Shown here piece after piece: positions 3,773-16,988 of a stretch of 64,000 nt of DNA. Below the pieces are notes generated by a model. That model had not been told where the DNA came from and searched no databases. It saw nothing but the letters and a program-made list of their open reading frames with translations. The translations under genes were made by a program, and so were the position numbers. The stretch covers positions 1 to 64,000 of the forward strand of contig JAPPIB010000041.1 in assembly GCA_028820695.1 (NCBI GenBank), read 5' to 3'. How positions within the stretch are numbered: position 1 is the stretch's first letter; the number at the start of each line of letters is the position of its first letter. The stretch comes from Acidiferrobacterales bacterium. GTDB lineage: Bacteria; Pseudomonadota; Gammaproteobacteria; Arenicellales; JAJDZL01.

Positions 3773-5113
3773 ATGCGAACTTGGATAAAAAATCCACTGG
3801 CAGTTTTTGCTGAGAATTCGGCCGGTGGAATGGTGATCGAAAATGACCGGATTGTTGAATGTCTTGCAAGCGGCGCCACGCCGCAAGTTTCCTGTGACAG
3901 CGTATTCGACGCTTCCGAGCACGTCATTTTGCCCGGGTTGATCAATGCCCACCATCATTTCTTCCAGACCTTGACCCGGGCCTACGGACCCGCATTGAAC
4001 AAGGAATTGTTTGCGTGGCTGACGACCCTGTATCCGGTCTGGTCTCGTCTGACTGCCGAACAGCTGGCAGACGCGACAGAATTGGCACTCACGGAACTTT
4101 TGCTTTCCGGATGTACAACAGCCTCCGACCACCACTACATGTTCCCGGAAGGGCTTGAGAACGGTATCGATATCCAAGTGGAGACTGCACAGAAGGTCGG
4201 CATACGTGTCGCATTGACTCGGGGCAGTATGGACCTTTCGGATGCCGAGGGCGGATTGGCGCCGGCTTCTACTGTCCAAACGACAGATGCGATTCTCGCC
4301 GATTCGGAACGCGTGATCCGGGAGCATCATGATCCGAGTGAGGGGTCGATGCAGCAGATTGCTCTTGCACCGTGCTCTCCGTTCGGTGTGACCCGAGAGT
4401 TGATGATCGAATCGGTTCGCATGGCTGATGAGTTTGGTGTTACCTTGCATACACATCTTGCCGAAACCCAGGATGAGAATAATTTTTGTATCAGGGAATA
4501 TGGCTGTCGTCCGGTCGACTATCTTGAAGGGGTAGGATGGATGAAAGACAATGTCTGGCTGGCGCATGGCATCCACTTCAATGACGAGGAAATCAAACGG
4601 TTGGGTGCGGCGAAGGTAGGCATTTCACATTGTCCGGGCTCAAACATGCTGCTTGCCTCCGGAATCTGCCCCACCCAGGAATTGCTGCAAAGCGGCGCCC
4701 GCATCGGAATTGGCGTCGATGGATCTGCTTCCGAGGATGCTTCCAATATGATTCAGGAAGCTCGGCTGGCGTTACAGATTCAGCGGCTTCGATATGGTTC
4801 GAAGAAAATTACGCACCTTGATGCGATCGAATGGGCCACACAGGGGTCAGCGGCGTGTCTGGGACGGGATGACATCGGTGTGGTCGCGAGTGGAAAGCAG
4901 GCCGACCTCGCGATGTACAAACTTGATGAGTTGCGGTTTTCGGGTGCGGGAGACCCGCTCGCCGCCTTGATACTCTGTGGCGCACATCGTGCTGACCGTG
5001 TCATGGTTGCGGGTGCTTGGCGGGTAGTTGACGGCGAGATTCCAGATGTTGACCTGTCGGAACTTATGGCACGTCATCAGGCATCATCGCGTAAGCTCAT
5101 GCAGGTGCATTGA
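3773..5113 (+). CDS. 8-oxoguanine deaminase (amidohydrolase)
   Basis: A 446-residue metal-dependent amidohydrolase of the AtzA/TrzN-like group, closest in pattern to the 8-oxoguanine deaminases that convert free 8-oxoguanine to urate. It is cytoplasmic, with no signal peptide. The zinc ligands are visible: H60 and H62 in INAHHHF, H228 in THLAE with E231 beside it, H265 in LAHG and D316 in GVDGS. The N-terminal WIKNPLA and the DKELFAWL-like segment NKELFAWL are typical of this subgroup rather than of guanine or cytosine deaminases. A very strong ribosome site, AAGGAGGT, spans the upstream heme A synthase stop and lies six bases before the ATG. A related hydroxyatrazine-type substrate cannot be excluded. 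Confidence 0.85.
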   Translation: MRTWIKNPLAVFAENSAGGMVIENDRIVECLASGATPQVSCDSVFDASEHVILPGLINAHHHFFQTLTRAYGPALNKELFAWLTTLYPVWSRLTAEQLADATELALTELLLSGCTTASDHHYMFPEGLENGIDIQVETAQKVGIRVALTRGSMDLSDAEGGLAPASTVQTTDAILADSERVIREHHDPSEGSMQQIALAPCSPFGVTRELMIESVRMADEFGVTLHTHLAETQDENNFCIREYGCRPVDYLEGVGWMKDNVWLAHGIHFNDEEIKRLGAAKVGISHCPGSNMLLASGICPTQELLQSGARIGIGVDGSASEDASNMIQEARLALQIQRLRYGSKKITHLDAIEWATQGSAACLGRDDIGVVASGKQADLAMYKLDELRFSGAGDPLAALILCGAHRADRVMVAGAWRVVDGEIPDVDLSELMARHQASSRKLMQVH

Positions 5114-5280: not shown

Positions 5281-6672
5281 ATGATAATCGGTTGCCACAT
5301 TGATTGTGGGAAGGTCGCGAACAGGGTGTCAGAACGCTTGGCGCTCGTGGTCCCAATGATTGGGTTGTGTCTGATTTCCCCCGCAGCCAACGCTGCCGTC
5401 GAATCGGAATCGGCCTTCGTTTTCAATTCGTTCTCCTTTTTGCTTTGGGGCGCATTTGTCATGTGGATGTGCGCCGGTTTTACGATGTTGGAAGCAGGGT
5501 CCGTTCGCACCAAGAATGCGTCGGTTATCTGTATGAAGAATATCGGACTGTATTCGATCGCCGGCATCGCTTTTTATCTGATCGGATACAACCTCATGTA
5601 CGTGGATGTGAATAAGTTTGTAGGCTCATTTACGTTCTTTTACAGTTCAACACCGGCGGAATACGCTTTGTTGGACGGCAATGCTGAGGCGTTGGATGAA
5701 GTTCTGAAGTCCGACTATTCGACTATGTCGGATTGGTTCTTCCAAATGGTCTTTGTAGCGACTACCGCTTCCATTGTCTCGGGAACCTTGGCCGAACGAG
5801 TCAAGCTGTGGTCATTCTTTCTGTTCATCGCGGTGCTGACCGCGGTCATCTACCCGATCGTCGGCGCTTGGACTTGGGGTGGCGGCTGGCTGTCGGAACT
5901 TGGGTTTCAGGATTTTGCCGGATCATCGATCGTACACTCGACAGGTGGCTGGGCAGCACTTGCAGGTGCGGTGGTTGTCGGATCAAGAATGAATAAGTTC
6001 CGCAAGGACGGAAGAGTGAAAAACACACCCCCTTCCAATGTCCCTGCTGTCACATTGGGTGTCTTTATCTTGTGGCTTGGTTGGTTTGGTTTTAACGGCG
6101 GTTCCCAACTTGCGCTCGATTCGGCAGTCAACGTGGTCGCAATGAGTGTTATCCTGGTCAATACAAATCTTGCCGCTGCGGCTGGCGTTCTGGTTGCTGT
6201 GACTGTATCGCGACCTTTGCTGGGGCGTGTCGACTTGCTGGCGGTTCTCAACGGTGCGATCGCCGGTTTGGTGGCGATTACCGCTGGCCCGGACATACAG
6301 GCACACCAATGGGCGATTGTGATCGGTGGTGTTGGTGGCTTCATCAGTACTGCGGGCATCAAGGTGTTGGAAAAATTAAAGATTGATGATGTGGTTGGCG
6401 CCATTCCGGCGCACATGTTTGCCGGTGTCTGGGGTACGCTAGCGGTCTGCATTGCGGGCGGTGGAAACTTCATGGTTCAGCTCACCGGTGTCGTCGCAAT
6501 CGGAGCATTTACCTTTGTGACATCATTTGTCATTTGGAAAGTAATCAGTGCGACTGTCGGCGCGCGGGTAACCCCGACTGTTGAGGCATTGGGACAGGAT
6601 GTAACAGAACTGGGAATTGAGGCCTATCCGGAATTCGTAATCTTACCAGACGACGAAGATGCCGATGTTTAG
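5281..6672 (+). CDS. amtB: Ammonium transporter (Amt family)
   Basis: An inner-membrane Amt/Mep/Rh channel of 463 residues that imports ammonium. A cleavable signal peptide ends near AANAA, then come eleven predicted helices. The twin pore histidines are present: H219 in SIVHSTGG and H378 in IPAHMFAG. The Amt signature GWAALAGAVVVG and the cytoplasmic tail containing a TELGIEAYPEF segment, the usual GlnK contact region, are also seen. No glnK gene is adjacent, which is unusual because amtB is most often paired with glnK. The gene stands alone behind its own candidate promoter. Regulation by nitrogen is expected from the family but is not shown here. Confidence 0.95.
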   Translation: MIIGCHIDCGKVANRVSERLALVVPMIGLCLISPAANAAVESESAFVFNSFSFLLWGAFVMWMCAGFTMLEAGSVRTKNASVICMKNIGLYSIAGIAFYLIGYNLMYVDVNKFVGSFTFFYSSTPAEYALLDGNAEALDEVLKSDYSTMSDWFFQMVFVATTASIVSGTLAERVKLWSFFLFIAVLTAVIYPIVGAWTWGGGWLSELGFQDFAGSSIVHSTGGWAALAGAVVVGSRMNKFRKDGRVKNTPPSNVPAVTLGVFILWLGWFGFNGGSQLALDSAVNVVAMSVILVNTNLAAAAGVLVAVTVSRPLLGRVDLLAVLNGAIAGLVAITAGPDIQAHQWAIVIGGVGGFISTAGIKVLEKLKIDDVVGAIPAHMFAGVWGTLAVCIAGGGNFMVQLTGVVAIGAFTFVTSFVIWKVISATVGARVTPTVEALGQDVTELGIEAYPEFVILPDDEDADV

Positions 6673-7029: not shown

Positions 7030-7368
7030 ATGGATATTCCTACAGAGAGAGTAGACGGAGCGCTAATCCTGCAGCCGAGCGGTAGAATTGATGGGCAAAA
7101 TGCTGTCGATTTTCAGACTGCAATTGAATCCATTGTCACTGATTCCGACAATGCGGTAGTTCTGGAATTGACTGATCTTGTGTACATCAGCAGCGCAGGA
7201 CTTCGAGTGATTTTGTTGCTTGCAAAGACTCTGAAGAGTCGAAATGCTCAGTTCGCGATGTGCTCGATTTCCGGATCAGTCAAGGATGTTTTCGATATCA
7301 GTGGCTTCGGAAAAATCATTTCGACTCATGACACCCGAGAAGGCGCTCTGAGCAGCATGAATTCCTGA
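7030..7368 (+). CDS. STAS-domain anti-sigma factor antagonist
   Basis: A 112-residue single STAS domain of the SpoIIAA/RsbV family. Such proteins bind and neutralise an anti-sigma kinase when unphosphorylated and are switched off by phosphorylation of a serine. The phosphorylation loop is clear: LVYISSAGLRVIL with serines at residues 54 and 55, preceded by a beta strand VVLELTD. The start has a strong ribosome site GGAGGTCATCAG directly upstream. About 2 kb away on the opposite strand lies a transmembrane protein with both a SpoIIE phosphatase and an RsbW-like kinase domain, which makes this STAS protein its probable substrate. That link is inference from proximity. No sigma factor gene is in the window. 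Confidence 0.9.
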   Translation: MDIPTERVDGALILQPSGRIDGQNAVDFQTAIESIVTDSDNAVVLELTDLVYISSAGLRVILLLAKTLKSRNAQFAMCSISGSVKDVFDISGFGKIISTHDTREGALSSMNS

Positions 7369-7698
7369 ATTGCTGCCAGCTAGTCAAGAAGAGCCCTATC
7401 ATCAGCGCGATTCATCCCGACTCAGACCTCCTCGCACAATCACCCTGATACATTCCATCCAAGTCTCGCTATAAGGCCTCGAGTCCATATCCCTGTGCTG
7501 GTTCTGTCGATAGTAACGGCGTAGCCGCTTGAATGGCTTGAAACTTGCCCGACCCGGCAGGGATTATTTTTCGAATTGTCGCAGTATATCTGCGGCATTC
7601 GCATTCAGGACGACTTGAATTGCGCGGGGCCAACGGTCCGCAACGCATGATTATCGAGGGAATCTGATCTGGGTAATCGTTCCCGGACTTGCGGGTTC
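7369..7698. other. Non-coding gap between convergent STAS and phosphatase-like genes
   Basis: About 330 bases separating two convergent genes. I see no recognisable coding sequence, no strong hairpin with a T-run on either strand and no tRNA-like fold. It probably contains only 3' untranslated sequence of both transcripts. Confidence 0.4.
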
Positions 7699-8280
7699 CT
7701 AGCCGATGTAGTCGATACCCGCCAATTCAAACTGATCCGATTGTACAAGCGAAACCCGTAGCATTCTTCCATTCGGGAAATTTGCCGCATCGTCATCGTC
7801 TGCCATCTCCAACAGTATCCTTGCCGTTCCTCGGCTGCCGACAATGATGGAACGGTGGTTGAGGAGCAGGTCATGAACTTGGTTCAATCCAAGAAGAAAT
7901 CTACTTCGAAATTCATCCTTACTCTCTCCGTTTTCCGGTGTTTCACCGGCCATTAACAACGGATTCACCACATCCGAGCTCTGGTTGTTCCACACGCCCA
8001 GCTTTCTCTCACGCAACAGCGGAAAGGATGTGATCTGCCCCTTGAATGCTTCGCACAGTATTTCCGCTGTCTCGATGCTTCGTTGATTCGTTGAGCAGAT
8101 GATTGTGTCAGGGGCTTCGCCGATCTGCCGCAAGACGTCAGTCGCCTGAAAAATCTGATTTCGGCCAAATTCGGTCAAAGCTGATTCGGAATCACCACCG
8201 GAAGCAACTTGCATCCTATTCGCGATCGTCTCGCCATGGCGAATGAACAAAAAACTGCACATGTCGGAACTAGCGTTCAT
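7699..8280 (-). CDS. Histidine phosphatase-fold protein lacking the second catalytic His
   Basis: A 193-residue member of the phosphoglycerate mutase-like histidine phosphatase superfamily. The phospho-acceptor motif FIRHGET (H15) and the acid in RERKLGVWNN (E91) are present. The second catalytic histidine, normally in a VSHGG or AAHGNSLR context, is not: the aligned segment reads VGSRGTAR (147-154), placing Ser149 where His should be. The fold is therefore clear but activity is doubtful; it may bind rather than hydrolyse a phospho-ligand, or use another residue. It is the last gene of the minus-strand sensor operon, overlapping the alpha/beta hydrolase start by 11 bases, so its role is probably tied to that system. 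Confidence 0.8.
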   Translation of the reverse strand: MNASSDMCSFLFIRHGETIANRMQVASGGDSESALTEFGRNQIFQATDVLRQIGEAPDTIICSTNQRSIETAEILCEAFKGQITSFPLLRERKLGVWNNQSSDVVNPLLMAGETPENGESKDEFRSRFLLGLNQVHDLLLNHRSIIVGSRGTARILLEMADDDDAANFPNGRMLRVSLVQSDQFELAGIDYIG

Positions 8281-9352
8281 CCGGATAAAGAACTCGATTG
8301 GGACGATAGCTCACGGATAGGACCTGATCGTCAACTCTGCGCCCATCATCCTGTAGCCAATTGGAAATGGCGGACGTCAACTCACTGTCTCCGAGAGATG
8401 GCGTGTGGCCGGAATCGAGAATATGAATGACGGAAAAATTCTCGTGACCCCGCATCCGGGCAATGGTCTCATCTGTTGTCGCATCACTTTCAACTCCGTG
8501 CAGCAATAGGACTGGGCATTGAACTGCGCTCCACTGGTCCCACAAGTCCAGACTTTGGCTCGCTTCCGCTCGGTAGGCCAGCATTGATCGTAAATCATGT
8601 CGATATATCCTACCTTGTTCGGTATCCGACCAACAAGTCTTGTGGTGCGAGCTGTGCAGCAGTACGGCATCCGGTGTTGGGCCTACATATTTCGCCGATG
8701 CGCCGATCCGCCTGAACATCTCAGAGGGAGTTCGAAAAATGTAATGCCGGCCCACGGCCCGTGCTCGCCGAGCTCGTCGCTCAACTGGAATATGCGGAGT
8801 ACTGTCATTGAGCACAATTTTACGCACCCGTTTGGGGTACCGGGCCGCAAATGATATTGCTATCGACCCCCCGAGCGACGAACCCAGCAGTGAACATGAG
8901 TCCAATCCCAGGTGAACCATCAACTGATTCAGCTGTTCTATGTAGGTATCCAGGTGATAGTCTGATGTTTCTGCCATCCAGCCACTGTAACCGCGGCCAC
9001 CGAGATCAAGCGCGATCACACGAACTTCGGGGTATGCGTCCAATGCCAGGAAATCGAAACGTTGGGCGACATTGGTTAATCCACCGATTGCAACAAGAGG
9101 TTGGCCATCGCCGCCTGAATCGGAAAAAGCAAGCGGAACGCTGTATGGCTTGCCGAAGCCGTAGTCAGGGTCCTGAAGTTCCACTGAATGTATATACTCA
9201 AAGCGATTCAGGACAGGCCAGTTTTCAAATTCGTCCCTGATCGCCAGTATCAGATTTTCGTATTGCGCCCAAGTCAACTTGTCGTACCGGTCATTGACGT
9301 TCATCTCCAGCCATTTGCGCAACGCAAAATCAACTTGTCGGCCGGAAGTCAT
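8270..9352 (-). CDS. Alpha/beta hydrolase
   Basis: A 360-residue soluble alpha/beta hydrolase fold enzyme of unknown substrate. An N-terminal extension of about 75 residues precedes the fold. The HG-like oxyanion strand reads AIGGLTN, the nucleophile elbow is LGSSLGGS (Ser159), and the acid and histidine are probably the Asp in GVESDATTDE and the His in DSGHTPS. The ALDLGGRGYSG segment is typical of esterase and lactonase-like members. It lies 30 bases downstream of the SpoIIE-type gene and overlaps the next gene, so it is co-transcribed with the sensory genes. Partner-switch loci of Bacillus contain RsbQ, an alpha/beta hydrolase needed with the PAS-SpoIIE protein RsbP, which is a useful precedent. 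Confidence 0.85.
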   Translation of the reverse strand: MTSGRQVDFALRKWLEMNVNDRYDKLTWAQYENLILAIRDEFENWPVLNRFEYIHSVELQDPDYGFGKPYSVPLAFSDSGGDGQPLVAIGGLTNVAQRFDFLALDAYPEVRVIALDLGGRGYSGWMAETSDYHLDTYIEQLNQLMVHLGLDSCSLLGSSLGGSIAISFAARYPKRVRKIVLNDSTPHIPVERRARRARAVGRHYIFRTPSEMFRRIGASAKYVGPTPDAVLLHSSHHKTCWSDTEQGRIYRHDLRSMLAYRAEASQSLDLWDQWSAVQCPVLLLHGVESDATTDETIARMRGHENFSVIHILDSGHTPSLGDSELTSAISNWLQDDGRRVDDQVLSVSYRPNRVLYPDER

Positions 9353-9382
9353 TCAGCGTGCACCGTGAGGGGTTGCACTGCT

Positions 9383-11971
9383 TTATTGATGATCAGGACG
9401 ATGAATCACCAGCGTCACGCGATTACGATTGTCAGTTCGTTCGTAGGTTGCTTTATCGACCAGGGTTTTTACGAAAAACACACCTAGTCCACCGATTTGC
9501 CGATCGTCCATGTCCGCTTCCAGATCCGGCGTGCTTGCCTCCAAAAACGGGTCGAAAGGATGACCACTGTCTTCCAGAACAATCTGCAGGGTGTTGGCGG
9601 TATGACTCACCGTCAGGCTGATGTCGGATTTCTCACTATCGTTCTTGAAGGCATAGCTCACGATGTTCGTGATCAGTTCATCCAGTGCAAGATTGGTATT
9701 GAATATCCATGCCTTGGGCCAGTTATTGGATTCTCCGAGTTGCTCAATTTCCTCAGCAATACGAGGAATTTCGGACAAATCACACTTCAAAGTCAGATTT
9801 ATTTCCATATCCTCACCATCCGTATCTGTAAACGTATCTGTACTACCGTGTATGTGATCCTTGACTCCAGCGTAGTGCAAGACTACGCACGTGATGTCGT
9901 CGAACTGCGGAGCAGTTCCTACAAATTTATCAACCGCCGTGATAATGTGCTTTACGTCGTCTCCAGCACCCCGATCGGGCAAAGACGATGCGACCTCCAG
10001 CAATCGGTCATCCCCAAATGCCTCACTATTCTCATTGAACGCCTCGGTAATGCCGTCTGTGATCATGACCAGCCGGGACTTTGGCGGCAGGAATAGCGAA
10101 TCCTCCTCAAAATTGAGGTTATCAAACATACCCAACACCATGCCCGCTGTCAGATCGAGTGGGGTAGCCCCGTCTTCGTTCACCAGAATCGGTGCGTTAT
10201 GTCCGCCATTTGCGTATGTGAATTGCCCAGTCGATTCGTTCAGGATTCCGTAGAAGAAAGTGATAAACAGATTCTCGTCATTGTGTGACTCAAGGAAGTT
10301 GTTGATTCTCTCCAACATACTGGCTGGCGAGCGTACATGTGCTGCCATGCCGCGCAACGAGGTTCTGGCCATGACCGCAAACAAAGCGGCCGGTACTCCT
10401 TTGCCTGACACATCGGCGATCGCCATCCCGATGTGCTCCTCATCAATTCTAAAATAGTCGAAGAAATCGCCTCCCACTTCCTTCGCTGGCCACATTCCGC
10501 CAATGATCTCAAACGCGTCGGACTGTTCACGTCGATGGGGCAGTAAGGACAACTGGACCCGGGTGGCGATATCCAATTCCTTGCGAAGTGCGATGAATGC
10601 CTGCTTTGTCGCGAGTGCGTCCCGCAGGCGCTGATGTTGGTCCTGCACCCGCGTTGACATGCTCTGAAAGGCTGTTGCCATCAAAAGCAGACTGTCTGTT
10701 CCGTGGATGGCCTTCGGGTCGAAGTCGTCAGCGGTAGGATCAATTGCGACCATAGATTCGGTTTCATTCCCGGATTTCGCATTTCGGTCGATTTGCTGTG
10801 CGATTTTGTCGAGTTCTTTCAGCATGGCAGCCTGTTCTTCACCATCCAGTGTGTCTGCGAGGCTTTTCATCTCACGATAGATGAACCTTTCTTGCCGCGC
10901 GCGCTGGCGTTCCCTGGATCGCCGAATCCGATTCAGCGTGATCATACCGGTGCGAAATACATTCACTGCGTTTCCAATCTGTCCGACTTCATCTTTTCCA
11001 CTTCTCATATGAACCAGCATCATAAGGTCGCCCCGGCTCAGTGCTTCAAGCACATGAACACCTTCCGTGAGAGACGCAAACGAATAACGCATGTAGAAGT
11101 AGATTGAGACGAGTGAGATCAGTGTAAAAACCACAATCGCCACAATTGTCAGTTGACTGATTTTTCTCTCTTGGAGAACCTGTTCTGTGACTTCAGTTAT
11201 GCTGACCAATCGACCCACAAGACTTCCGACATCCGCTATTTGCGGTAGCACGGTAACCGAGAAATATCGATCATCCTTGGAAATGGTCTGTGATGTGCTC
11301 AACTCACCGAGATCGACAAGTTCACCGTAGTTTTCCCAGATCTCAGGGTTCGGTGAGACCAGAAGCCGCCCGCGACGATTGAGAATCATGACTGAGGCGT
11401 CGTTGAGCTTTTCCATCTCGGAAATGGGCCAGATAATGTCCAGCGACATGATGCCCAGTCCCACGATCGAATCGACATCGTTGATGATCGGGAATCCATA
11501 CACCACTGCGGTGTTGCGCTGCTTGTCGTTTCCCACACCTCGGACAATGGAACGGTTCTTCACAGCATTCATTGCGACTTCTTCCGAGATGATCGGGCTT
11601 TGAAAGACACCTGAAAGGGATGAGAAAATCAAATTGCCATCCGAGTCGAGGATATCAAGGCGATCGGACACCTCCTCGGACATCAGCTGCCTGACAATCA
11701 GTCGTCCTGTGTTTCGGATCAGTTCGTAGTCCTGGTTTTCAATTGCCCCTACAAGCTCTCGGTTGTCTCGAACTATCCACGCCGAGTCTTCCATATTGGC
11801 AATGAACTCATCTTGGATTTTGCTCCACAGGTTGACTTCATCCGCAATAATCTCATCTGACAGCTGATTCCTGATCAGTTGCTCGCGCTCAAATGAGGCA
11901 AACAGGACCGCCGAACTGATGATTATGACGGTCAGTACGCTTAGCAGGCTGATTCGAGTTCGTAGCAGCAT
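9383..11971 (-). CDS. Transmembrane sensor with SpoIIE phosphatase and RsbW-like kinase domains
   Basis: An 862-residue inner-membrane signalling protein. Order: TM1 (about 9-27), a periplasmic sensor region (28-272, with a dCache-like feel), TM2 (273-295), HAMP (about 296-350), a charged coiled-coil linker, a SpoIIE/PP2C phosphatase domain (about 470-700) with EVGGDFFDY, ADVSGKGVPAAL, TDGITEA and FDDITCVVL metal-site motifs, and a C-terminal HATPase of the RsbW type (about 725-860) with ALDELITNIV, EDSGHPFDP and GGLGVFFVK. Having phosphatase and kinase in one chain resembles the CrsR/HsbR regulators of Shewanella and Pseudomonas, but those use a receiver domain while this one has its own periplasmic sensor. 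The expected substrate is a STAS protein such as the one at 7030-7368. Confidence 0.92.
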   Translation of the reverse strand: MLLRTRISLLSVLTVIIISSAVLFASFEREQLIRNQLSDEIIADEVNLWSKIQDEFIANMEDSAWIVRDNRELVGAIENQDYELIRNTGRLIVRQLMSEEVSDRLDILDSDGNLIFSSLSGVFQSPIISEEVAMNAVKNRSIVRGVGNDKQRNTAVVYGFPIINDVDSIVGLGIMSLDIIWPISEMEKLNDASVMILNRRGRLLVSPNPEIWENYGELVDLGELSTSQTISKDDRYFSVTVLPQIADVGSLVGRLVSITEVTEQVLQERKISQLTIVAIVVFTLISLVSIYFYMRYSFASLTEGVHVLEALSRGDLMMLVHMRSGKDEVGQIGNAVNVFRTGMITLNRIRRSRERQRARQERFIYREMKSLADTLDGEEQAAMLKELDKIAQQIDRNAKSGNETESMVAIDPTADDFDPKAIHGTDSLLLMATAFQSMSTRVQDQHQRLRDALATKQAFIALRKELDIATRVQLSLLPHRREQSDAFEIIGGMWPAKEVGGDFFDYFRIDEEHIGMAIADVSGKGVPAALFAVMARTSLRGMAAHVRSPASMLERINNFLESHNDENLFITFFYGILNESTGQFTYANGGHNAPILVNEDGATPLDLTAGMVLGMFDNLNFEEDSLFLPPKSRLVMITDGITEAFNENSEAFGDDRLLEVASSLPDRGAGDDVKHIITAVDKFVGTAPQFDDITCVVLHYAGVKDHIHGSTDTFTDTDGEDMEINLTLKCDLSEIPRIAEEIEQLGESNNWPKAWIFNTNLALDELITNIVSYAFKNDSEKSDISLTVSHTANTLQIVLEDSGHPFDPFLEASTPDLEADMDDRQIGGLGVFFVKTLVDKATYERTDNRNRVTLVIHRPDHQ

Positions 11972-11996
11972 GACTCAAAAGTTGATCAAAACGGGT

Positions 11997-13028
11997 TCAC
12001 TGAGCGTTACTTCGCTTGAACTCGGCAATTGAAATCACATTCATCGGCGGGTACAGGCCAAGTTCGCTCGCGACATCGATGTTGATCCAATACTGGAAGC
12101 GAGATAACCGGGCTACCGACAATTTTGACGCGTTGTCGCCGTTGACCAGTATTCGTTCCGCCTGAACGGCAGCCAGCTTACCGAGCGTGTGATAGTCGCT
12201 GACGAGGCCAAACATTGCCCGTGTGGTTCGCAATGGGGCCTGTGTTGATGCGAAAGTAGGCAGCCCGGCCTTCAGGGCAGCATCCGTATAGGCCACACCG
12301 TGCCGAAAAATAAACGAATCCGGCCCCATATACAGAATTTCCGCGCCGTCTTCCTTGGCTTTGGCTACCAGACCCGGCAGGGAATCGGGATCCGGAAGTC
12401 CGTCAGATTTCTTTGGGATCGGAAAGACCAAAAGCTCGATCCCCAACTGGGGTACAACTTCCTTCAGCTGAGAGACATTGATTCTGGAATTGCTTTGAGT
12501 CTCATCATAAATGACGGCCATTTTCTTGAAGGGTCGATAGGCCAGCATTGCATTGATCTGCGCTTCGATGGATGCGAGAAATGCGACACCAGTCACGTTT
12601 CGCCCCGGGAATTGAAAACTTTCAACGATGCCAGCACTGACTGGATACGCAACCAGGACAAAGATGCCGGGAATGTCTGTCACCTGGCCGTCGGCATCCG
12701 ATTCGTTGACTTTCCCAAAAATACTCAACGTTGTTCCGGTCCCCCAGGTGTAGACCAGATCCGGTTTAACCTGCTTGATTTCCTCAATGATTCCGGGTGC
12801 GTTCGCACGGTCGAGATTCAGATTTCGAATCGTCATTTCATAGGGAATTCCGCGTTGATTCAGATACTCCTGAAATCCTGCTTCAACTGCGGTTTCGCCG
12901 CGCCATACGACGGCGAAAATTTTGTACTTTCGATCGTAACTGACTTCCTGATCAGACTGCGCAGCGGCATGGTTCACAATCAAGTGTGCGGCAAGAAAAA
13001 ATAAAATCAGATAACTCTTTCTGAACAC
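11997..13028 (-). CDS. Periplasmic substrate-binding protein (ABC_sub_bind family)
   Basis: A 343-residue secreted binding protein with a signal peptide ending near HAAAQ (residues 20-24). The body matches the TrpX-like ABC_sub_bind family: two Rossmann-like lobes with YTWGTGTTLS, a VAYPVSAG hinge, FPGRNVTGV, a KMAVIYDE strand start and a C-terminal FQYWINIDVASELG. No ABC permease or ATPase gene is adjacent, so transport by a dedicated ABC system is not supported here. Its position between two transmembrane sensors, with gaps of only 4 and 25 bases, suggests that it presents a ligand to their periplasmic domains. The ligand is unknown; related proteins bind amino acids or aromatic compounds. 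Confidence 0.88.
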   Translation of the reverse strand: MFRKSYLILFFLAAHLIVNHAAAQSDQEVSYDRKYKIFAVVWRGETAVEAGFQEYLNQRGIPYEMTIRNLNLDRANAPGIIEEIKQVKPDLVYTWGTGTTLSIFGKVNESDADGQVTDIPGIFVLVAYPVSAGIVESFQFPGRNVTGVAFLASIEAQINAMLAYRPFKKMAVIYDETQSNSRINVSQLKEVVPQLGIELLVFPIPKKSDGLPDPDSLPGLVAKAKEDGAEILYMGPDSFIFRHGVAYTDAALKAGLPTFASTQAPLRTTRAMFGLVSDYHTLGKLAAVQAERILVNGDNASKLSVARLSRFQYWINIDVASELGLYPPMNVISIAEFKRSNAQ

Positions 13029-13032
13029 GGAA

Positions 13033-15198
13033 TCAACCCTGAGGTCTGGTTGTGGCTTGTCTTTTGAAATTCCGCGCTCTCGGACGGGACATGATCACCA
13101 AGAACATCACAATCAAGATGAATATGATTGCTCCGAATCCTGCAATGGCATTGTGATAGCCGAATTGACTGATCAGCCCAACGGCAACCAACGGTCCGAT
13201 AACCATGCCGATTCGTTCAAACACGCGGTATGCACTGACTGTCATTGTTCTTCCGATGGTGTCGGCATAATCGCTGGCAACTGTCAGAATGATCGAATTT
13301 TGGGAAGTCAGCAGCAAGGCATGACCGAATCCGAGTAAGAGAATCGCCACGACAACAGCATTGGTATTGCTGAGGCCGATCTGTTGTGAGAACAAAGTTG
13401 CAATACATCCTGCGCCCGCGAGCAGACCACCGGCAAAAACAACCTGGACAAAATTACGCGTCCTGTCAGCGTAGCGCGTGGAAACATAGATCAGGGCAAG
13501 TGTCGCCAAGCCGTAAAACATCATCAATCGTCCGACGGATGATTCATTGTGCCCCAGTTGGGTCAGGTAGAGTGGTACCAGATATGCAATAAAGCCGGAG
13601 ATCATCATTTTCGCCGGAATGGCTGTCAAGAACAAAACCGAAAAGAACCGGGGATCTTTGAGTAACGTGATTAATTCCCATGCGCTGATTATGGTTCGAG
13701 GTCTGCGATTTTCGATGGTGTCTCCTTCCGACCTGAAAATCTGATAGATGATCAGTCCCGAAGTCACTGCAAGACAAGCAGAAATCAGGAATGTTGCTTC
13801 AAAACCTATTCTGTTGGCAATCATTCCACCGATTGGCGGGCCACAGATTATGCCGACAAAAACTGCCGTCACGAAGATGCCTGTCGATTGGGAACGATTG
13901 TGTTCTCCGGCATTCTGGACAACCCAGCCTTCGGATGCAACGAAGATGAGACTGTAGCCTATACCCGTGAGCACTCGGAACGCAACCAGATCGTAGTAGG
14001 TCTGAGTCAGGAAATTACCGATGAAACCAACTGTTGCAATGACTACACCGATCAGGAAAATTCGATGCACGCCGAAACGTTCAACCAAGCCTCCGCCGAA
14101 TGGTGTGACAACCATCACCGCAAGCATGAACAGCGTGATCGGCAGGCTGATGAGGAGATCATGTGACAGCATCAGGTCTGTCGGTGCGTATTTGGACACG
14201 AATAGCGGAATGAACGATCTGGACAGCTCTTCTGAAAATATGAACATGAACAGCGGCACCCGAATCTGTGAAACCTGTTTCGAATCGACGTCCCTAATGC
14301 CGCTGAGGGTGAACTTCAAATCGAACGCCTCTCGTACACCATTGATTTTATTTCCGATTTTGTTGTCGATCTGTGCGTGCTTGAGTTCCGCAACCTCGAA
14401 AAGAAAATCGTTGTACTTGTGTTGCAGATTCTGGACTAAATTGTTGAAACTGGTTGTCAATTGCCCGATTTCATCCTTTGTCCTACCCACCAGACGGGTG
14501 GTAAATACGCCCCGCGAACCTTCTGCAAGCACCGTTCGGATATGGTTGATAGGTCTCGATATGCGACGACGCATGTAAAACCCGAGCAGTTCGAAGGTCA
14601 CCAGCCACGAAATCACGATCACAGTCAGGATTTCAAAGATCATTTCGAAAAACTGACTTCGAATATGCTCGCTGGTCACCCCCACGTGCAAAATCGTTGA
14701 ACCGGCCAATGTCTCAAGGATCGGAAATGCGCCATCGAGATATCCAAGCACGTCAGTTTCGAAATTCGCCTTGCTGATGTGTTGAAACTTCAACTCATTC
14801 AGTATGGTTTCGATGGTTGCCAGGTCGACACCCCGAACGAACAGCACCTGTCCATTCGGATCAATCATCGCGAGATATTCGATATCCATGTTTATCTGAA
14901 GGTAATTGTCGAAATAGTCTTCGACACCGACCAGTTGGTGGGGTGGAATATCCAGTTCGCCGACTGCGAATGCCAGTTCGGACGAAATGGTGTTGCCAAC
15001 CACCTCGGCTTTTTGGCTCAATTGTGGGCTGAGTTCCGTTTCAAAGCCAAGCAGGGCAAACCACGAAATCGCGAACTGTCCGCTCAGCAGCACCACGACT
15101 GATAGCATTACCATTCGGGCGAGCAAACCCCTTTGGTGTGTCAGGAACTCCTGAATTCCGAATTTCTCGCGTTCAAGTTTTTCTGGGATGGAATTCAC
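13033..15198 (-). CDS. Sensor-HAMP domain fused to an MFS transporter
   Basis: A 721-residue membrane protein of unusual architecture. Residues 28-50 form TM1, 51-185 a periplasmic sensor domain, 186-208 TM2 and about 209-260 a HAMP-like linker with SRPINHI and DEIGQLTTSFNNL. After a short linker come about twelve helices of a major facilitator transporter (about 312-705), including the loop motif GGGLVERFGVHRIF. Sensors of this shape normally end in kinases, cyclases or methyl-acceptor domains, so ending in a transporter suggests that ligand binding outside gates transport, or that the transporter reports flux to the sensor. The frame is continuous, with no stop or shift at the junction. It overlaps the upstream sensor gene by four bases (ATGA). 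Confidence 0.88.
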   Translation of the reverse strand: MNSIPEKLEREKFGIQEFLTHQRGLLARMVMLSVVVLLSGQFAISWFALLGFETELSPQLSQKAEVVGNTISSELAFAVGELDIPPHQLVGVEDYFDNYLQINMDIEYLAMIDPNGQVLFVRGVDLATIETILNELKFQHISKANFETDVLGYLDGAFPILETLAGSTILHVGVTSEHIRSQFFEMIFEILTVIVISWLVTFELLGFYMRRRISRPINHIRTVLAEGSRGVFTTRLVGRTKDEIGQLTTSFNNLVQNLQHKYNDFLFEVAELKHAQIDNKIGNKINGVREAFDLKFTLSGIRDVDSKQVSQIRVPLFMFIFSEELSRSFIPLFVSKYAPTDLMLSHDLLISLPITLFMLAVMVVTPFGGGLVERFGVHRIFLIGVVIATVGFIGNFLTQTYYDLVAFRVLTGIGYSLIFVASEGWVVQNAGEHNRSQSTGIFVTAVFVGIICGPPIGGMIANRIGFEATFLISACLAVTSGLIIYQIFRSEGDTIENRRPRTIISAWELITLLKDPRFFSVLFLTAIPAKMMISGFIAYLVPLYLTQLGHNESSVGRLMMFYGLATLALIYVSTRYADRTRNFVQVVFAGGLLAGAGCIATLFSQQIGLSNTNAVVVAILLLGFGHALLLTSQNSIILTVASDYADTIGRTMTVSAYRVFERIGMVIGPLVAVGLISQFGYHNAIAGFGAIIFILIVMFLVIMSRPRARNFKRQATTRPQG

Positions 15199-15980
15199 GA
15201 TTCGGTTTCGTCGAGTTCAATAACGTCCGAACTGGCTTTGCTCAAGGCAACCTGCACATTAAGAACTGACGTAGAAAAAGATTCAAATTCCGGATGGTTT
15301 CTGATGGTCGCTTCAAGATGTTTGCTGTCCTTTTCATTGTTCATGATGTCCTTGAATGCTTGCGTCATACTTTTCAAGTCTGTAATCGTGCCGCGCAAAA
15401 GCAAAATACATCCTACAAGACTCATGATGGCCATGAAGACAGCCACGACCAGACCGATGGTTATAAGGTGCCTGGTCTGTGCGAAAAAACTTTGGTCCAG
15501 GAATTCCCTGGAATAGCGTAAGGCGAGAGAGCCGACATTTTGATTGAGGTTATTCTGAATGGGTACTCCGACAACAGCCGCATCCCGCTCAAGCCGCGAC
15601 CATGAAGTGGAATTCTGATTCGCCCGCCATGCAAACACCCATTCTTCCGAAACCAGGTCGCCGATAAAACTCGGGTCGGTGCTGAACAATACCGAGCCTT
15701 TCTCATCAAACACCTCGATAGAGAGAATCATCTCGTCATTTCTTCGATAACTATCGAGTTCTTCCGATACGTCTTGCAAGGTTGACAGCGCCAGCCCCAA
15801 ATCCATCTGCGTTTCGAGCTTGTGACGAATATCGTTGACGATAAACTGAAATCTGGACGTCAGCAAATCGCTGTGGGTATGTCGGAACTTATCCAGACTC
15901 AGACCTATGGTCAATGCGATGCCTGCCATCAGTATTGTAACAAGCATGATGGAAATGCGTGAGGTAACGCCGAATTTCAT
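15195..15980 (-). CDS. Stand-alone transmembrane sensor without output domain
   Basis: A 261-residue inner-membrane protein with TM1 (about 9-28), a periplasmic domain of roughly 140 residues that includes a PAS/Cache-like strand pair IEVFDEKGSVLFST, TM2 (about 173-196) and a short cytoplasmic region of about 65 residues resembling a degenerate HAMP and coiled coil. No kinase, phosphatase or transporter domain follows. It is the first gene of the minus-strand operon, and its stop overlaps the start of the sensor-MFS gene. Its layout mirrors the sensor half of that protein, so the two may pair as a heterodimer. Function is inferred only from architecture and context. Confidence 0.8.
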   Translation of the reverse strand: MKFGVTSRISIMLVTILMAGIALTIGLSLDKFRHTHSDLLTSRFQFIVNDIRHKLETQMDLGLALSTLQDVSEELDSYRRNDEMILSIEVFDEKGSVLFSTDPSFIGDLVSEEWVFAWRANQNSTSWSRLERDAAVVGVPIQNNLNQNVGSLALRYSREFLDQSFFAQTRHLITIGLVVAVFMAIMSLVGCILLLRGTITDLKSMTQAFKDIMNNEKDSKHLEATIRNHPEFESFSTSVLNVQVALSKASSDVIELDETES

Positions 15981-16637: not shown

Positions 16638-16988
16638 ATGAACATGCAGATCAATTATTCAGAACTTGCCAATGAGACATTTGGTGTGAACACAAAACTG
16701 ATCAACAAGTCAGTGGAACTCGGAGTCGAATCGGCTCAGCGAATTTTCAAGGGTGCTTCCGAACAGTCCGGTGCGTGGTTGAAGGTCAGGACATTTGATG
16801 ACCTCGTCGAAACGCAGGAAAACTGGAACGCCTTTGCCGTCGGTCAGATCCAGAATTCAACCCGTTCGGCGATTGAATTGGGCACCGAAGCTTACAACTC
16901 TTATCTGAGTCTTTGGGAAAAATACAGCCGATCCGCCGGTGAGGCTGCTGTAGCAGCGACCAAAGCGCCGGTCGCGAACAAAAAGTAA
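16638..16988 (+). CDS. phaP: Phasin family protein
   Basis: A 116-residue phasin, a small amphipathic helical protein that coats polyhydroxyalkanoate granules in the cytoplasm. The sequence has no Cys, is rich in Ala, Glu and Ser, and carries the phasin pattern with FDDLVETQENWNAFAV, the helix NSTRSAIELGTEAYNS and an alanine-rich tail with APVANKK. A GGAG ribosome site precedes the ATG at 16638; a second ATG two codons later is possible. It stands alone between its own promoter and a strong terminator, and its promoter carries operator-like palindromes, matching the tight control usual for phasins. No PHA synthase gene is in the window. Confidence 0.88.
   Translation: MNMQINYSELANETFGVNTKLINKSVELGVESAQRIFKGASEQSGAWLKVRTFDDLVETQENWNAFAVGQIQNSTRSAIELGTEAYNSYLSLWEKYSRSAGEAAVAATKAPVANKK

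Follow-up and report, generated by a model that had tools for sequence, protein, structure and literature searches.

The stretch of DNA analyzed here (the window) comprises 64,000 nucleotides of contig JAPPIB010000041.1 from an Acidiferrobacterales bacterium (GenBank assembly GCA_028820695.1). On its minus strand lie six genes joined by overlaps of 4 to 11 bp or gaps of at most ~30 bp. They encode a lone transmembrane sensor, a fusion of a sensor to a transporter of the major facilitator superfamily (MFS), a periplasmic binding protein, an 862-residue SpoIIE phosphatase/RsbW-type kinase, an alpha/beta hydrolase, and a histidine-phosphatase-fold protein. The gene for a STAS protein is convergent to this set, 330 bp away (Table 1). 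An earlier note on this DNA, made from the letters alone, had described the six packed genes with these domains and the convergent STAS gene, and the description held: open reading frames (ORFs) were found at exactly those coordinates and Pfam agrees. The E values were 1.5e-10 (HAMP) and 2.5e-44 (MFS_1) for the sensor-MFS protein, 7e-21 (ABC_sub_bind) for the binding protein, 1e-49 (SpoIIE) and 3e-20 (HATPase_c_2) for the 862-residue protein, in which dCache and HAMP matched weakly, 2.5e-16 (Abhydrolase_1) for the hydrolase, 1e-21 (His_Phos_1) for the phosphatase-fold protein, and 9e-21 (STAS) for the STAS protein. All seven members of the original gene set stand, but a neighboring gene for an ammonium transporter (Amt) had been overlooked.

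Table 1. Genes of the sensory locus and their positions in the window
Feature	Coordinates	Strand	Basis
Transmembrane (TM) sensor; orphan, no output domain; core gene 1	15195..15980	-	ORF call, AlphaFold2 model, Foldseek
Sensor-HAMP-MFS fusion; TM-PDC-TM-HAMP, then antiporter-type MFS; core gene 2	13033..15198	-	Pfam, AlphaFold2, Foldseek
Periplasmic binding protein; PF04392, TrpX-like superfamily; core gene 3	11997..13028	-	Pfam
Membrane SpoIIE (PP2C) phosphatase + RsbW-type kinase fusion; N-terminal Cache-like sensor, HAMP	9383..11971	-	Pfam
Alpha/beta hydrolase; accessory	8270..9352	-	Pfam, Ser + His intact
Histidine-phosphatase-fold protein; accessory; second catalytic His replaced by Arg/Lys	7699..8280	-	Pfam, alignment
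STAS protein; anti-sigma-antagonist type, predicted substrate (Ser54/Ser55)	7030..7368	+	Pfam, ribosome-binding site GGAGGT
Ammonium transporter (Amt); marine subtype TIGR03644, proposed eighth member	5281..6672	+	NCBIfam

Neighborhoods of up to 19 kb were fetched around relatives of the phosphatase/kinase. Each of the five other genus genomes has a full-length relative, as do five genomes from another family of the order, and these 10 genomes share one gene order: sensor, MFS, binding protein, SpoIIE, (kinase), hydrolase, phosphatase, and convergent STAS, with ~40 to 60% protein identity. The hydrolase and phosphatase genes are absent from the locus in genomes G032 and G040, and the STAS gene of G027 lies ~20 kb from the sensor operon. 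The co-conservation that the earlier note had named as its check was thus found across the whole genus and also in a further family. With the gene order repeated in 10 related genomes, the arrangement is far beyond chance, and at the level of sequence the locus is an evolutionarily kept unit. Phosphatase and kinase are fused in the window, in four of the five other genus genomes, and in two alphaproteobacterial metagenome-assembled genomes (MAGs; loci L062 and L063), and they are mostly separate genes outside the genus of the window. Stops in the SpoIIE frame of G002 simply mark the boundary of two separate genes, one for the phosphatase and one for the kinase; the same explanation holds for the single stop in the frame of G040 (L055).

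A wider survey used the alignment of the binding protein alone to scan 84,980 species genomes; of 137 relatives, the 80 best were retained. These gave 79 loci spread over the alpha-, beta-, and gammaproteobacteria, 70 of which had enough flanking sequence to serve as the basis of all neighbor counts. A sensor-MFS gene lies directly upstream of the binding-protein gene in 69 of the 70 loci, a figure that is not circular because the loci were chosen by the binding protein only. A match to the lone sensor lies upstream in 67/70, and the loci that break the order of this triad are rearranged or contain weak matches. An even draw across the phylum (399 genomes) found the binding protein in 8 of the 398 other genomes, with an adjoining sensor-MFS match in all eight, and a class draw by the MFS protein added two more loci, both with MFS and binding protein together. 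The real core is therefore the lone sensor, the sensor-MFS protein, and the PF04392 binding protein; the hydrolase and phosphatase-fold protein are accessory. Azospirillum brasilense Sp7 carries the triad and a GNAT gene on a megaplasmid. Among the best 80 of 137 relatives, the nearest binding proteins are those of Arenicellales and other gammaproteobacterial MAGs; bin names hint at marine sponge metagenomes as a probable source. The binding proteins of two alphaproteobacterial MAGs, L053 and L057, reach 61% identity, compared to 59% within the genus, a similarity pointing to either horizontal transfer or MAG mixing.

The lone sensor reached the cut-off of no Pfam family and had no NCBIfam or PHROG match. 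Its deep-alignment AlphaFold2 model (pLDDT 87.5) has a PAS-like periplasmic sheet (PDC/Cache-like) between two TM helices, the second of which leads into a short, helical tail in the cytoplasm. Foldseek matched the model to the sensor domains of WalK, DcuS, CitA, sporulation kinase D, and Chlamydia RsbU (6mab). On the strength of this fold and the matches to kinase sensor domains, the lone sensor as modeled is a sensor-kinase-like receptor minus its kinase. The 721-residue sensor-MFS protein was modeled with a pLDDT of 82.8 and a pTM of 0.76. According to Foldseek, its MFS part is nearest to the proton antiporters NorA, VMAT, and MdfA, and sequence comparison agrees; the domain resembles an exporter of the proton-antiport type (DHA1-like). 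No ABC permease or ATPase for the binding protein is encoded among the genes of the locus. The likeness to antiporters and the missing ABC permease argue against the coupling of uptake to signaling that the earlier note had envisaged.

What accompanies the core varies. The set of SpoIIE phosphatase, RsbW-type kinase, and STAS protein is complete in 29 of the 70 loci and partial in 13. A GNAT gene is found in 43 loci, where it is the sole output in 18, and a membrane receptor Ser/Thr kinase with dCache and HAMP domains is found in seven. Hydrolase and phosphatase-fold genes occur together in 16/70 loci; in most loci without them, GNAT adjoins the binding protein. No GNAT gene lies within the window. 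The components have also been joined in several ways. The lone sensor and sensor-MFS protein are fused in L097 and L123 and, by profile matches, in L127, and an RsbW-type kinase is fused to a TM-sensor-TM unit in the Rhodobacterales loci L079, L083, L087, and L102. L114, also from the Rhodobacterales, has a kinase fusion with two TM helices and no scoring sensor match. We read these gene neighborhoods as a single sensing core whose effectors (partner switch, receptor Ser/Thr kinase, or GNAT) can be exchanged, and the triad looks like an undescribed plug-in signaling module. Two of the receptor Ser/Thr kinases (L093:3430-5949 and L108:3195-5822) have C-terminal dCache and HAMP domains, are divergent from the triad, and adjoin the hydrolase and phosphatase-fold genes. 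At L121:12158-13936, an RsbW-type kinase domain is fused to a guanylate-cyclase-like domain, with a STAS gene adjoining and the triad beside it.

The residues expected of an Rsb-type switch are all in place. The four metal-binding Asp residues of the PP2C domain are intact in 44/44 SpoIIE sequences, the kinase part of the 862-residue protein (HATPase_c_2) matches RsbW, and the SSAG loop of the STAS protein keeps its phosphorylatable Ser in 35/35. The STAS protein also matches TIGR00377 (ant_ant_sig) and structures of the SpoIIAA/RsbV type. The genome has no other SpoIIE protein. As the earlier note had proposed, a dual role as phosphatase and kinase of the STAS protein is plausible for the 862-residue protein. 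The hydrolase keeps its catalytic Ser and His in 19/19 sequences and the carboxylate in 17/19. It had been likened to RsbQ, which is not among the 60 best of its 205 solved relatives. The last operon product has a histidine-phosphatase fold. Its Glu is conserved, and the first catalytic His is kept in all 17 sequences; the second, the other His of branch 1 histidine phosphatases, is Arg or Lys (GS[RK]G) in 17/17 across three classes. The alignment marks this as a conserved substitution, not decay. The protein also matches phrog_12933, a PHROG family of unknown function (1.1e-19). Since the hydrolase and phosphatase-fold genes sit with a Ser/Thr kinase in place of SpoIIE in distant loci, this accessory pair belongs to the signaling module rather than to partner switching as such.

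The assembly, which is 97.6% complete, was searched for possible outputs. Besides the one RsbW-type kinase, HATPase_c_2 matched two ORFs of 349 and 482 amino acids, the size of histidine kinases. The STAS protein is the only one of its type, the others being large ORFs of 743 and 611 amino acids and one protein of 126 amino acids. Only two proteins contain sigma-70 region 2 (593 and 307 amino acids, sized like RpoD and RpoH), and no SigB/SigF-like or extracytoplasmic function (ECF) sigma factor was found in this assembly. The GGDEF domain had no match in it either, while 8 of 14 control genomes were positive. The earlier note had expected sigma or cyclic-di-GMP control. With no GGDEF match and only two sigma-70 proteins, both outputs are unlikely in this genome.

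The gene that had been overlooked offers another candidate. The Amt gene precedes the STAS gene on the same strand, 357 bp upstream. The clade of this Amt (≥66% identity) is present in 10 of the 11 locus-carrying genomes of the two families, the exception being G032, and in none of the relatives without the locus. In all 10, the clade Amt stands beside STAS, at gaps of 53 to 89 nt except in the window (357 nt) and its nearest relative (325 nt); the pair is intact in G027 despite its distance from the sensor operon. When the alphaproteobacteria are included, 19 of 29 clade Amts adjoin STAS (three of them divergently) versus 0 of ~32 other Amts, and a few of the ten clade Amts without a STAS neighbor are located close to the end of a contig. 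Members of the clade share a C-terminal tail, R[VI]SPxVEELGQDxxELGIEAYPEF followed by an acidic end, which replaces the EEExxGVD motif. The only P-II gene of the genome adjoins another Amt. In G004 (L026:2011-4987), tandem Amt genes precede STAS, and the upstream copy is ~60% identical to the Amt of the window.

Taken together, we consider it probable that the orphan PDC sensor, the sensor-HAMP-MFS protein, and the PF04392 protein form a sensory module wired to the only SpoIIE/RsbW-type/STAS partner switch of the genome. The binding protein would capture a small periplasmic molecule, possibly a product of export by the MFS domain. Either its loaded form or the transporter's state would be sensed by the periplasmic parts of three proteins: the lone sensor, the sensor-MFS fusion, and the phosphatase/kinase. 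This signal would set the balance of kinase and PP2C activities in the 862-residue protein and thereby the phosphorylation of STAS at Ser54/55. Unphosphorylated STAS may then act on a target that is neither a sigma factor nor part of cyclic-di-GMP signaling, for which the linked Amt is the best candidate. Action of STAS on this Amt is our leading guess for the output, and a tentative one. A reading that we regard as rather doubtful holds that the triad is a new kind of transport-sensing module, widespread in Proteobacteria and equipped with exchangeable outputs, and that in this lineage STAS directly controls this Amt, as GlnK does the other.

Several observations weigh against the wiring of the module to the switch or against its proposed output. 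The partner switch is absent from 28 of the 70 core loci, so the primary role of the core need not be partner switching. The pairwise correlation of the distance matrices of all components (r mostly 0.8 to 0.95) speaks for the module, but the shared species tree was not controlled for in it. Linkage of Amt and STAS fails in at least five genomes: G331 to G334 have a clade Amt and a STAS gene elsewhere, next to malate dehydrogenase or transglutaminase genes where checked, and G032 has STAS and no clade Amt. The STAS positions in G331 to G334 rule out Amt as a universal STAS neighbor. The missing sigma factors and GGDEF proteins, finally, are absences from an assembly that is 97.6% complete. These absences are what count against a classical output of the RsbVW or HsbA kind, with STAS freeing or capturing a sigma factor (the RpoH-like one), a partner that resembles an anti-sigma factor, or a diguanylate cyclase. 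The TIGR00377 and SpoIIAA/RsbV-type matches of STAS and the RsbW match of the kinase fit such an output, which we nonetheless hold to be improbable.

The enzymes beside the core (GNAT, hydrolase, or phosphatase-fold protein) suggest two further explanations. They could make or modify a small molecule that the MFS domain exports and the binding protein reports to the sensors, a self-signaling circuit akin to quorum sensing by LuxPQ. The exporter type of the MFS domain, the position of GNAT next to the binding protein in most loci that lack the hydrolase and phosphatase, and the co-inheritance of enzymes and sensors are all consistent with this. However, the window has no GNAT, the GNAT proteins are only distantly related to small-molecule acetyltransferases in the PDB, and the enzymes could equally modify proteins or detoxify the ligand, so that we think such a circuit unlikely. 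If instead the system served chemical defense, the binding protein would sense a toxic compound that the MFS protein exports and the enzymes render harmless, with the switch or kinase tuning the response; the MFS part is nearest to multidrug exporters, and GNAT distantly matches antibiotic acetyltransferases. A conserved binding protein with no importer would be unusual for drug resistance, however, and the Amt link is left unexplained, which makes defense an improbable function. Every family at the locus is common on its own, as mere clustering of unrelated nutrient-uptake and signaling genes would have it, but the neighborhood data (core conservation in 69/70 loci, three kinds of fusion, three classes) contradict chance clustering, and we give it almost no credence.

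The preferred reading, a binding-protein-fed sensory module wired to a partner switch, can be compared to known systems. SypE of Vibrio fischeri is a response regulator in a two-component setting, and we know of no binding protein, MFS fusion, or PDC sensors in the SypE-SypA system. SypE is both serine kinase and phosphatase of the STAS protein SypA, whose target is unknown and is not stated to be a sigma factor (PMC8256260). The 862-residue protein is similar in that it combines both domains in a single protein, with STAS as its predicted substrate. In SiaABCD of Pseudomonas aeruginosa, a membrane PP2C protein with HAMP takes part in a partner switch without a sigma factor; its kinase, SiaB, is a protein apart from the phosphatase, Thr68 of SiaC serves as the substrate site, and the diguanylate cyclase SiaD provides the output (PMC7647112). 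The NCBIfam SiaA model matches residues 437 to 696 of the 862-residue protein, far below cut-off; unlike SiaABCD, the genome of the window lacks a GGDEF protein, and its phosphatase and kinase are fused. CrsR/CrsA and HsbR/HsbA likewise unite phosphatase and RsbW-type kinase domains in a single protein that targets a STAS protein, but CrsR and HsbR receive their input through a cytoplasmic receiver domain, in contrast to the membrane Cache-like sensor here, and their outputs act on sigma/FlgM or the HsbD diguanylate cyclase. Chlamydia RsbU, which Foldseek had returned for the lone sensor, is also a membrane PP2C protein with a periplasmic Cache-like domain; to our knowledge, it has no binding-protein or transporter partners. 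In LuxP-LuxQ and TorT-TorS, a binding protein reports to a membrane sensor, as we presume here, but these systems feed histidine kinases, whereas the outputs here are a partner switch, a Ser/Thr kinase, or none, and an MFS fusion is added.

A search of the open-license literature found nothing relevant on HAMP-MFS, binding protein-SpoIIE, or STAS-Amt systems and no paper that combines a partner switch with a binding protein and an MFS-HAMP fusion, in line with the remark in the earlier note that it knew of no described system with this set. The core triad may deserve more than standing as a variant of known partner switches. If the reading is correct, sensing of a periplasmic molecule by a fused transporter and sensor would be an undescribed mechanism shared by many Proteobacteria, among them the cultured Azospirillum brasilense Sp7, Thalassospira, Tistlia, Roseospira, and a Vibrio, and would be plugged into different phosphorylation or acetylation outputs. 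Partner switching would gain a binding-protein input, and the Amt-STAS pairing would give a testable example of a partner switch whose target is a membrane transporter instead of transcription or cyclic-di-GMP.

Some flanking genes were also recorded. On a megaplasmid of Vibrio sp. THAF190c (L219:4522-15967), the triad stands directly before type VI secretion genes (VgrG-like, DUF6931, ImpA, and VipB), with a two-component pair on its other side. A link to type VI secretion was rejected, as it was seen on this one Vibrio plasmid only and had no counterpart among the large ORFs that flank nine other loci. The plasmid records searched carried no gene annotation at the matches. A phasin-like gene (16638-16988 in the window) lies past the upstream end of the operon, a position that it also has in four of the five other genus genomes. 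An amidohydrolase gene (3773-5113) is kept near Amt in at least three of these genomes and, judging by its family, could encode an ammonia-releasing deaminase.

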